Below, piece by piece: positions 526 through 7,671 of a DNA stretch of 64,000 nucleotides. The translations under genes were made by a program, and so were the position numbers. The stretch's first letter is position 1; every line of letters begins with the position of its first letter. The stretch comes from Candidatus Obscuribacterales bacterium (GTDB lineage Bacteria > Cyanobacteriota > Vampirovibrionia > Obscuribacterales > Obscuribacteraceae): contig JAGVKG010000026.1 of the NCBI GenBank assembly GCA_020050685.1, forward strand, positions 62,001 to 126,000, given 5' to 3'. Under the pieces are notes generated by a model that saw only the letters and a list, made by a program, of their open reading frames with translations, was not told where the DNA came from and did no database searches.

Positions 526-825
526 TCACTTGTCTTCAAATTTCAACTTACCGAGGTCACGCTTGCCGTGCACCACTCGTATTACTTCGATTGCATCGCC
601 GCTTTGGCGGTAAAAGATTACGTAATTGCCTTCAGTTACACTGCGAACGTTTGGAAACAACTCATCACGCTTTCGCCCAATGCCGGGGCTCTCTGCGAGC
701 AAATTGCATTTTTCTTTTAGACGTCCAACGAAGTTGTGAGCAGCGGTAACGTTATCCTTGGCAATATAATCACCGATGTTCTTTAGATCTTGAAGCGCCA
801 ACCTTGTGAACTGTAGTCGGCTCAC
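526..825 (-). CDS. parE: ParE/RelE-family toxin
   Basis: A 99-residue protein with the ParE/RelE toxin pattern: an N-terminal helical half (LQDLKNIGDYIAKDN), a central PGIGRKRDEL segment, and a C-terminal beta half with NYVIFYRQ and IEVIRVVHGKRDL. The family consists of ribosome-dependent mRNases or gyrase inhibitors, and the arrangement with a ParD-like partner suggests the ParE branch. The start is GTG at 825, overlapping the antitoxin stop by 4 bases (GTGA), which implies translational coupling. The antitoxin comes first in the operon, as is usual for parDE. The gyrase target is inferred from family, not shown. Confidence 0.85.
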   Translation of the reverse strand: MSRLQFTRLALQDLKNIGDYIAKDNVTAAHNFVGRLKEKCNLLAESPGIGRKRDELFPNVRSVTEGNYVIFYRQSGDAIEVIRVVHGKRDLGKLKFEDK

Positions 826-1052: not shown

Positions 1053-1231
1053 GTTTCGGTACCTCTTAATGAAATTATACCCGAAGCGACAATTCTCCAA
1101 TTCCCTAGCAGGCTAACGATTTAATATGCAACAAAGTGCTTCAGTCTAATCTCCAACCGTTATTTGCGAAGCCGCCGAGGGCAAAAACTTGATAGATTTC
1201 TGTGACTTTTGGCAACCTGGGGGGACGCATT

Positions 1232-3956: not shown

Positions 3957-3962
3957 TATAAT
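3957..3962 (+). promoter_or_regulatory. -10 box for the DUF3800 gene
   Basis: A perfect TATAAT lies about 75 bases before the DUF3800 start codon. The matching -35 region is weak. Predicted initiation near 3969 would place the whole inverted-repeat leader within the transcript. Confidence 0.5.
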
Positions 3963-3968
3963 GGACCT

Positions 3969-4037
3969 TGGTAATCTGACCGGCGACAAGAGGCCCACTG
4001 GAATCTTCCTTCGGGATAGCCGGTCTCTTATTTTTAT
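3969..4037 (+). promoter_or_regulatory. Structured, possibly switching leader of the DUF3800 gene
   Basis: Seven-base arms GACCGGC (3978-3984) and GCCGGTC (4019-4025) can pair perfectly around a 34-base interior. A competing 8-bp helix joins AAGAGGCC (3988-3995) to GGTCTCTT (4022-4029), with one G-U pair, and is followed by ATTTTTAT, so the alternative fold resembles an intrinsic terminator. The two helices share 4022-4025 and exclude each other. No Shine-Dalgarno motif lies before the ATG at 4038. From memory, several conserved RNA motifs named DUF3800-I to -XI are described upstream of genes of this family; membership of this sequence in any of them is unverified. Confidence 0.5.
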
Positions 4038-4691
4038 ATGTACCTATTTCTAGATGAAGCTGGTGATTTTGACTTTTCGGCTAGCGGTTCCAGCTACCTG
4101 ATTTTTGGCGGCGTCTTAATGCCGACTCTAGCTCCGGCCGAGGCGCTTCAAAATCTACGGCATGAACTTGCTGCTGGTGGTTACTCCCTGCCAAACGGAT
4201 TTCACGCAAAAAATGATCCCAAGCCACGCCGGCTCCGAGCATTCGAAGTAATTTCTAGACTCGATTTACAAATATATGCTGTAGCTCTCGAGAAACGAAA
4301 GGCTTATCCCAATATTCGCTCAGACGTGGCTTATATGTACAAGCTTGGCTGCCACTTCCTGTTGCGCTATCTGTTCGAACAAGTAATTCCAGAGAGGCAA
4401 GCCCTGCAAATTATAATCAGCAATTATGGTTCGGGAGAAATCAACCGTACCGTAGAGGCCGCTTGCCGAGCAGTGATTAAGCAAAACGGAACGAAACACA
4501 CTATCACCACGGCGTTTTGGGGAGGTCAAAGTCACTGCGGACTGCAGCTGGCTGACTATTGCGCTTGGGGAATTCAACGCCATTACGAAGCGCCGGACGA
4601 TGAACACGGTAAGAGAATAATGGAACAACTAAAGCCCAAGATAGCCAATATCTTTGAGCCATTCCGCCTGTCAACACAGAAATATTATTAG
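4038..4691 (+). CDS. DUF3800 protein
   Basis: A 217-residue protein matching DUF3800: an acidic N-terminal strand (MYLFLDEAGDF, residues 1-11, with D6, E7 and D10 as the typical acidic cluster), then SSYLIFGGVL, and a late LQLADYCAWGIQRHYE block with the conserved ADY aspartate. The biochemical role of the family is not established; it is often seen in accessory and mobile regions, and the acidic residues suggest a metal-dependent nuclease-like fold, which is inference. The gene is led by an unusual structured leader without a Shine-Dalgarno site. It sits in the toxin-antitoxin-rich end of the window. Confidence 0.8.
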   Translation: MYLFLDEAGDFDFSASGSSYLIFGGVLMPTLAPAEALQNLRHELAAGGYSLPNGFHAKNDPKPRRLRAFEVISRLDLQIYAVALEKRKAYPNIRSDVAYMYKLGCHFLLRYLFEQVIPERQALQIIISNYGSGEINRTVEAACRAVIKQNGTKHTITTAFWGGQSHCGLQLADYCAWGIQRHYEAPDDEHGKRIMEQLKPKIANIFEPFRLSTQKYY

Positions 4692-4753
4692 CAAAATCTT
4701 TAGCAGCATTTACACGCCAAGTCGAAAGGATTCAAATCGGAAGAGCCAAGAAA

Positions 4754-4978
4754 ATGAAAATAAAAAAACACAAGAACTACCCATTTATGGCAGCCGGACG
4801 AATTTGGACCATACCAGCGGTAACTCTTTCTATTCATCCCGATGGTTCGACTGGTCTATCACTGGCAGAAATTCAGCGGATTCAAAAGGCAATCGCGAAC
4901 GAAATCTGCGCCTCCACTTCTCCCACAACAGCAGAAGAAATGGAATTCTTGCGCGAGACTCCCGGCACAAAGATATAA
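4754..4978 (+). CDS. Small hypothetical protein, copy 1 of a duplicated gene
   Basis: A 74-residue protein, nearly identical to the product at 6665-6886 over its first 70 residues (shared blocks NYPFMAAGRIWTIP and LSIHPDG, then LSLAEIQRIQ). At the DNA level the two share a stretch of about 49 identical bases covering codons 6-22. Substitutions between copies are mostly synonymous or conservative (AV to EV, ST to SA), so both appear to have been under protein-level selection. An AAGA-type weak ribosome site precedes the ATG. The family is not recognised. It follows the DUF3800 gene by about 60 bases and may be co-transcribed. Confidence 0.6.
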   Translation: MKIKKHKNYPFMAAGRIWTIPAVTLSIHPDGSTGLSLAEIQRIQKAIANEICASTSPTTAEEMEFLRETPGTKI

Positions 4979-6561: not shown

Positions 6562-6664
6562 CTTCGCTTCATCCGCGAACACATACAGCATCCGGAAAGC
6601 CCTCTAATAGAAAGAGCCGACTACCCCCAATGAATATTTAACCTCGAATTAGAATGGTGAAAAA

Positions 6665-6886
6665 ATGAAAACAAAAAGACACAAGAACTACCCATTTATG
6701 GCAGCCGGACGAATTTGGACCATACCAGAGGTAACGCTTTCTATTCATCCCGACGGTTCCGCTGGTCTATCACTGGCCGAGATTCAGCGGATTCAAGAGG
6801 TAATCGCCAACGAAATACGCAGCTCCACTTCTCCCATAACTGCCGACGAAATGGAGTTCTTGCGCGATGCTACCTTAAGGTCTTGA
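6665..6886 (+). CDS. Small hypothetical protein, copy 2 of a duplicated gene
   Basis: A 73-residue paralogue of the gene at 4754-4978 (see that entry for shared blocks). The copies differ mainly at the extreme C-terminus, where this one ends DATLRS and overlaps the end of the convergent vapC gene by 17 bases. ATG 6665 follows a weak GGTG/AAAA context. In both copies the neighbour on the right is VapB-related DNA in reverse orientation (intact here, decayed in copy 1), so gene and antitoxin probably duplicated as a block. Function is unknown. Confidence 0.6.
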   Translation: MKTKRHKNYPFMAAGRIWTIPEVTLSIHPDGSAGLSLAEIQRIQEVIANEIRSSTSPITADEMEFLRDATLRS

Positions 6887-7265
6887 GATTCGTACACGCG
6901 GCGATTTGATCAAAGTCGCGATCCTTGTGAAATATGGCAAATCCATTTTCCAAACATATTGCAGCAATAATACAATCCACAGTCTTCCTAACCGTTTTGC
7001 CCTTGCGTCGGCACTCCCGATAAATATTCGCTGCCGCAACAAACGTATCCAATCCACTTGCTTGATAAATTGGAAAGCTCATAAGCAGCTCTTTGACTGA
7101 ATGGAAATCGCGATCGTCCTTGATGCCCTGAAGCACCTCTGTTAAGACTATGTCCGTAATGCCGATTTCGGCATCTGATTCGATCAAATGCTTAATCGCT
7201 TTGCTTTGACTACTAGCGTCGTTTGTTAAAAACTCAATCCAAGCGCTAGTATCGACAACAATCAT
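6870..7265 (-). CDS. vapC: VapC PIN-domain ribonuclease toxin
   Basis: A 131-residue PIN domain. The acidic metal-binding residues are visible: D5 in MIVVDTSAW, the glutamate in LTEVLQG, the aspartate in TVDCIIAA, and D115-D118 in FHKDRDFDQIA. All four positions of the PIN active site are intact, so it should be a Mg-dependent endoribonuclease, with tRNA or rRNA as typical targets. Its ATG overlaps the vapB stop by 4 bases (ATGA). The 3' end overlaps the convergent small gene by 17 bases. Confidence 0.92.
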   Translation of the reverse strand: MIVVDTSAWIEFLTNDASSQSKAIKHLIESDAEIGITDIVLTEVLQGIKDDRDFHSVKELLMSFPIYQASGLDTFVAAANIYRECRRKGKTVRKTVDCIIAAICLENGFAIFHKDRDFDQIAACTNLKTLR

Positions 7266-7462
7266 GCTCTAGTCCGCCGCATCTGCGACAGATCTCCGAG
7301 CCATTTAACCTTGCCTTGGTAAGCGAGGAGTTTCTTTCTTTTCTCCCTGCTAACAAGTTCCGCAAGGGCGTGATTAATCAGCTCTTTCTTGGTGCTGATG
7401 CTGGTTAGCTTCATTGCTTGTTTTACGAGCTTTTCATCAAGCTCTATGTTAGTTCTATGCAT
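7262..7462 (-). CDS. vapB: VapB ribbon-helix-helix antitoxin
   Basis: A 66-residue protein starting at ATG 7462, preceded by AGAGG at a spacing of about 10 bases. Residues 1-45 (HRTNIELDEKLVKQAMKLT then STKKELINHALAELV) form the ribbon-helix-helix DNA-binding fold typical of type II VapB antitoxins. The C-terminal tail (WLGDLSQMRRTRA) matches the VapC-binding WxGDLxxMR pattern. It is first in the operon and coupled to vapC. A 13-bp-arm palindrome just upstream is the likely operator. Confidence 0.9.
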   Translation of the reverse strand: MHRTNIELDEKLVKQAMKLTSISTKKELINHALAELVSREKRKKLLAYQGKVKWLGDLSQMRRTRA

Positions 7463-7480
7463 ACCAAGAAAACCTCTATG

Positions 7481-7516
7481 CCAATACACATAATATAGCA
7501 TATTTATGTGTATTGG
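7481..7516 (-). promoter_or_regulatory. Palindromic operator of vapBC
   Basis: Perfect inverted repeat: CCAATACACATAA (7481-7493) and TTATGTGTATTGG (7504-7516) around a 10-base AT-rich centre. It ends 19 bases before the vapB start codon on the reverse strand. Ribbon-helix-helix antitoxins bind such palindromes with the toxin as co-repressor, so autoregulation is expected. Confidence 0.75.
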
Positions 7517-7671
7517 GTACACGTGCGAACTCACTCTTCCACGGCATTCACTCTCACCTCCATAGAAGTGGAACCCGTGTGTCCGGAACTGTATCGTTGG
7601 CGCCAGAATTCAATTTCACTTGACGCCAATTACGCGTAGAATGACCTCGCGGTAATAGCGGAAAAATAAAA

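Follow-up and report, generated by a model that had tools for sequence, protein, structure and literature searches.

A conserved three-way-junction RNA tied to one branch of DUF3800 genes, with a diverged copy ahead of such a gene in an Obscuribacterales genome

The gene and the leader before it

The window, by which we mean the whole 64-kb stretch of DNA analysed here, from a Candidatus Obscuribacterales bacterium, carries on its forward strand a gene (4038-4691) for a DUF3800 protein of 217 amino acids (PF12686, 37.4 bits against a cutoff of 21), as the preliminary description of this DNA had stated. Modelled by AlphaFold2 from an alignment of the protein and its fetched relatives (pLDDT 88.6), it has a predicted RNase HII-like fold. 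The best solved matches in Foldseek are RNase HII enzymes with E-values from 4.3e-6 to 7e-4, at TM-scores of only about 0.5, and we therefore take the likeness as a resemblance of fold. Residues D6, E7, H56, K86 and D173 are invariant, and the protein's FxDEAG resembles the DEAG motif of RNase HII. An RNase H fold has been predicted for DUF3800 in published work too (PMC10910872). Elsewhere in the window, a 213-nt direct repeat (4751-4963 and 6662-6874, 89% identical) holds in each copy an ORF of 73-74 amino acids that begins MKxKxHKNYPFMAAGRIWTIP, the one in the first copy having no Pfam match, and two small gene pairs on the reverse strand look toxin-antitoxin-like by eye, one ParE-like (526-1100) and one with a PIN-domain gene and a short partner (6870-7534).

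Ahead of the DUF3800 gene we find a TATAAT (3957-3962), a U-rich tail TCTTATTTTTAT (4026-4037) that includes ATTTTTAT (4030-4037), and an ATG at 4038 that lacks a Shine-Dalgarno site, with the letters as previously given. The TATAAT is a possible -10 element of an RNA promoter and the tail a possible terminator, although promoter and terminator scans gave no match at the site: no good -35 partner for the TATAAT passes the scan, and the tail together with the helix directly before it was not detected by a simple hairpin scan.

The leader had been described as holding two mutually exclusive helices, and the complementarity is real. GACCGGC (3978-3984) forms seven Watson-Crick pairs with GCCGGTC (4019-4025), AAGAGGCC (3988-3995) forms eight pairs, one of them G-U, with GGTCTCTT (4022-4029), and the two helices exclude each other since positions 4022-4025 are common to both. 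Could they form a cis-acting attenuator or riboswitch, in which an exchange of leader helices sets termination before the DUF3800 start codon? Both helices are present, U-rich sequence would follow either of them, and no equal of the second, rival helix (span 3988-4029, forward strand) turned up when the 3' region was shuffled 300 times. However, two overlapping helices that together are at least as long, with G-U pairs allowed, occur in 228 of the 761 84-nt tiles of the window, or 30% (in 2 of 761 if only Watson-Crick pairs count), so that helix competition by itself is ordinary at this size in a 64-kb window. Moreover, single-sequence folding gives the leader no advantage over shuffled sequence (z -0.31), and the predicted ensemble gives the first helix a probability of 0.87 against 0.018 for the rival. 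The site stands above chance for a comparative reason, namely because the first helix is conserved, as P1, in a covarying RNA of three helices.

A conserved RNA with three helices

We built two covariance models of this RNA, R1 from four sequences and R2 from 21 other loci with the window excluded. R1 recovers the RNAs of relatives in tandem and in convergent arrangement as well as the window site, which it scores at 23.1 bits (E 1e-4), and R2 finds a single match in the 64 kb, at 3974-4027 on the forward strand (29.6 bits, E 2.5e-5); these E-values are rough, owing to a shortened calibration. Support independent of the E-values comes from position, for the matched core ends 10 nt before the DUF3800 start.

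The family was aligned on a covariance model (alignment A6), which replaced MAFFT alignments that misplaced P2 and P3 in members with longer loops. Such an alignment leans towards its own structure, and controls with slid structures therefore matter: the covariation score is 0.565 for A6 and 0.083-0.133 for the slid structures. In A6, 97.0% of the 395 cells are paired and 13 of the 20 pairs show changes on both sides, which bears out, across homologues, that the first of the two described helices is both conserved and covarying. P1 and P3 are free to vary in sequence with pairing kept, P3 covarying at all 4 of its model pairs, P2 is almost invariant in sequence (consensus AGAGCCC-n2-3-GGGCUCU), and the junctions, mostly GAYA on one side and UA on the other, are almost invariant too, with UAG in every row. 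The leading base of UGAY pairs with the G of UAG as U-G or C-G, and C3984-G4019 in the window is therefore a usual closing pair. Clear copies of the RNA stand just before DUF3800 in three genomes of the window's family (loci L003, L004 and L005), where they read P1, UGAY-A, AGAGCCC-UC-GGGCUCU, a small hairpin, UAG and the second strand of P1; further carriers are viral contigs, plasmids, a Gordonia phage and other bacteria. TATAAT-like boxes also precede the RNA in the tandem relatives, and several relatives have U-rich tails comparable to the window's. About 200 nt upstream of the DUF3800-associated RNA of L003 there is an int-alpA RNA (RF02996, 53.9 bits; 1151-1219, reverse strand), another three-way-junction sRNA.

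By these comparisons, window positions 3974-4027 are a diverged copy of the conserved three-way-junction RNA. The 5' strand of P1 (3978-3984), ending in a C that is paired to the G of the conserved UAG, is followed by junction J1/2, GACA (3985-3988), and by the P2 hairpin (3989-4006, loop CACU), which was placed by the R2 alignment and a constrained fold. The R2 alignment then gives the P3 hairpin, UCC-UUCG-GGA (4007-4016) with its UUCG loop, ahead of junction J3/1, UA (4017-4018), and the 3' strand of P1 (4019-4025). P2 departs from the family consensus, with AGA/UCU and CC/GG making five standard pairs around two G-A mismatches, but the junction letters are retained. With P2 partly broken, the family fold of the window lies 1.1 kcal/mol above the predicted minimum.

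The leader had also been proposed to supply an RNA partner of the protein akin to the Rfam DUF3800 motifs, and this part of the preliminary description is supported. A conserved RNA does accompany a branch of DUF3800 genes, and it resembles DUF3800-IX (RF02968, of Rfam type Gene; sRNA), with which it shares the order P1, a four-base junction starting with GA, a P2 of 7 pairs, P3, UA and P1. The three-way junction with a GA-starting J1/2 and a UA J3/1 is seen both in A6 and in the window, as is the location beside DUF3800 genes (PF12686 in the window; 9 of 10 sites in the blind scan described below). However, where the consensus P2 of DUF3800-IX is uGUCgCC/GGcGGCg, the RNA described here has a fixed AGAGCCC/GGGCUCU. 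Scores over the full RF02968 model are 30.9 bits for L014 and 35.5 bits for L088, short of the 36.8-bit cutoff, which no family member here reaches; the window does not match the model at E 10, and a search of the genomes of the window's phylum and of control genomes gave zero matches. A scan of the window against Rfam returned one tRNA as its sole match and no DUF3800 RNA at the site. The window RNA is thus, by its plan, an outlying relative of DUF3800-IX and, by Rfam's rule, not a member. Other structured RNAs are also named after DUF3800 genes, for example DUF3800-I (RF02969; PMC11701678), and like ours they are structured and linked by name to DUF3800; at the thresholds used, none of those in Rfam matched the window or the RNA of any scanned relative.

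Linkage to one DUF3800 branch and gene order

Searches by protein yielded 21 homologues of this branch, the window included, and the RNA adjoins the gene in 20 of them, a weak match in L083 (E 0.03) being counted. The one homologue in which no RNA was seen, L081, lies on a contig that ends 57 nt past the match. At 25 loci with other DUF3800 genes, R2 gave zero matches at E 10. Since it was the protein that led to most loci, adjacency there is partly a matter of selection, and the fair test is a blind scan for the RNA only. Across 398 genomes this yielded 10 new sites, 9 of them beside DUF3800 genes, which were convergent and within tens of bases (one, in L090, truncated). At L043 (2565-3244, reverse strand) following up the RNA match brought to light a truncated DUF3800 start immediately behind it, FVDETGELDYS; the remnant ORF opens MHVFVDETGELDYS and joins a DUF3800-like start to unrelated sequence, as in a decayed DUF3800 gene.

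The RNA is found with no adjacent DUF3800 gene in L010, L033 and L093. In L010, a viral contig, a strong copy (562-618, reverse strand) lies immediately ahead of a sequence that, judged by eye, resembles a tmRNA gene, and DUF3800 was not found on the 25-kb record; in L093, the tenth site of the blind scan, a transposase-like sequence, again by eye, follows the RNA. Two weak matches, L036 and L066, had no DUF3800 match next to them and were rejected, the former looking like a chance palindromic terminator. The window's own genome has two more DUF3800 genes (G000:C43:46401-46991 and G000:C6:33880-34500), with no such RNA beside them. A search of that entire genome with R1 passed over even the window site, probably because of its prefilter, so further copies of the RNA may exist there. 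Gordonia phage Kenna (L086, 1878-2691) encodes a DUF3800 protein as gp54, which is annotated as hypothetical; the RNA follows its gene in convergent orientation, and the pair sits between the immunity repressor and integrase genes.

L033, which shares synteny with L005, is of particular use. Over 57 nt the RNAs of the two loci are 98% identical, against 71% for the adjacent coding sequence, which suggests that the RNA of L033 is itself under selection although the adjacent gene is absent; the genome of L033 has another DUF3800 gene with an RNA of its own (L006). In L005 the RNA and DUF3800 lie between 61-nt direct repeats (1287-1347 and 2149-2209, 87% alike) which appear by eye to be the 3' end of a uracil-DNA glycosylase-like gene, as though 860 bp had been inserted as a unit; L033 has the RNA and lacks both DUF3800 and the second repeat. 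Together with the U runs that follow P1 at several loci, these repeats might suggest that the RNA has no role as a partner and just serves some small mobile cassette as its common terminator or marks a site of recombination. We consider this most improbable, for no such flanking repeats were found in L003, in L004 or around the window gene, and the conserved junctions and P2 sequence and the covariation of P1 and P3 go beyond what a terminator needs.

Where the RNA lies with respect to the gene differs among relatives. In 23 rows of the protein tree it is downstream and convergent, encoded on the other strand directly past the DUF3800 gene, and in 4 rows (the window, L003, L004 and L005) it is upstream and in tandem. 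One poorly placed distant row aside, the four tandem loci cluster together (support 92/97) opposite the 23 convergent rows, the root being a midpoint root only, from which the direction of the change in order is not inferable. Comparative evidence ties the RNA to one DUF3800 branch, whereas its place with respect to the gene is not fixed.

This gene order bears directly on the proposed RNA switch, a reading of the preliminary description that the comparison does not support. In most relatives the RNA converges on the gene from its 3' side, where it cannot serve as a leader, and a switch in cis is therefore unlikely; the RNA is not confined to 5' leaders, nor are both alternative helices conserved. 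The rival helix does recur, with 7 pairs in the same register in L004 and partially, with 5 pairs, in L003, as compared to 8 in the window, but L005, which is likewise tandem, lacks it at length, as do all convergent loci. We accordingly set the riboswitch reading aside and regard an attenuator acting in cis as improbable. A lineage-specific use of the rival helix in the tandem loci is possible, with little to speak for it.

A candidate RNA-protein pair

Our analysis points to a unit of RNA and protein as the likely explanation of the locus, with 3974-4027 as its RNA half and the DUF3800 gene behind it as the protein half. The comparison of related loci shows that the RNA exists, how it folds and that it goes with one DUF3800 branch. 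The presence of its own TATAAT and of a U-rich tail suggests that it may be expressed separately, as a small RNA that the protein would bind, and the simplest account, in our best reading, is a cognate sRNA partner of a predicted RNase HII-fold protein. The RNA would be about 65 nt long, probably starting from the TATAAT at 3957, 11 nt before the core, would fold into the three-way junction of P1, P2 and P3 with junctions GACA and UA, and would end in the U-rich tail ahead of the start codon. In the tandem order most transcription would stop at that tail and some would read through into the mRNA, and because of this partial stopping the RNA would exceed mRNA and protein. Once bound, the RNA may scaffold, guide, or restrain and inhibit the presumed nuclease.

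How does such a pair compare with known systems? Type VII retrons carry DUF3800, and the window protein matches the PADLOC model DUF3800_VII weakly (E 1.6e-6); no reverse transcriptase was found by Pfam scan among six neighbouring ORFs, and a retron was rejected. DUF3800 accessory proteins of CRISPR-Cas12a2 and VI-F loci are predicted RNase H-fold nucleases (PMC10910872, PMC12669027). They resemble our case in that a nuclease is predicted to work beside an RNA, but no Cas gene or CRISPR match was found at the window locus and the protein has no TPR domain, so that this assignment too was rejected. In type III toxin-antitoxin pairs of the ToxIN type, a stop signal stands between an RNA and the gene of an RNA-cutting protein, and in the window an RNA, a possible stop signal and the gene of a presumed RNA-cutting protein follow one another in the same way.

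It is conceivable that the RNA is a type III-like antitoxin, a small RNA that would silence a toxic DUF3800 nuclease by binding it and that a transcription stop before the gene would keep in excess. This is one form of the partner model, and its probability overlaps with that of the latter. The order of promoter, RNA, U-rich stop and gene is like the type III layout, an RNase H-like fold is predicted, and the RNA is conserved in L033 where the gene is absent. However, type III antitoxins are tandem repeats and here there is one RNA unit with no repeats, the predicted fold is RNase HII-like and not that of ToxN, and the order at most loci is convergent. On balance we hold the antitoxin role to be doubtful.

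In a literature search we found no paper that gives a function for the Rfam RNAs named after DUF3800. To these, our results add a well-supported clade of DUF3800-linked RNAs that extends across bacteria, plasmids and phages, and its small and clean RNA-protein pairs, including that of Gordonia phage Kenna gp54, are well suited to direct tests of binding and activity. More speculatively, the DUF3800 proteins of this branch may form a compact mobile RNA-protein system in which the 65-nt RNA would be an obligate cofactor that aims or licenses a nuclease of RNase HII fold, for instance in phage defence or prophage immunity. On this tentative proposal, the lineage of the window would have rearranged the pair under one promoter, with a fixed ratio of RNA to protein.
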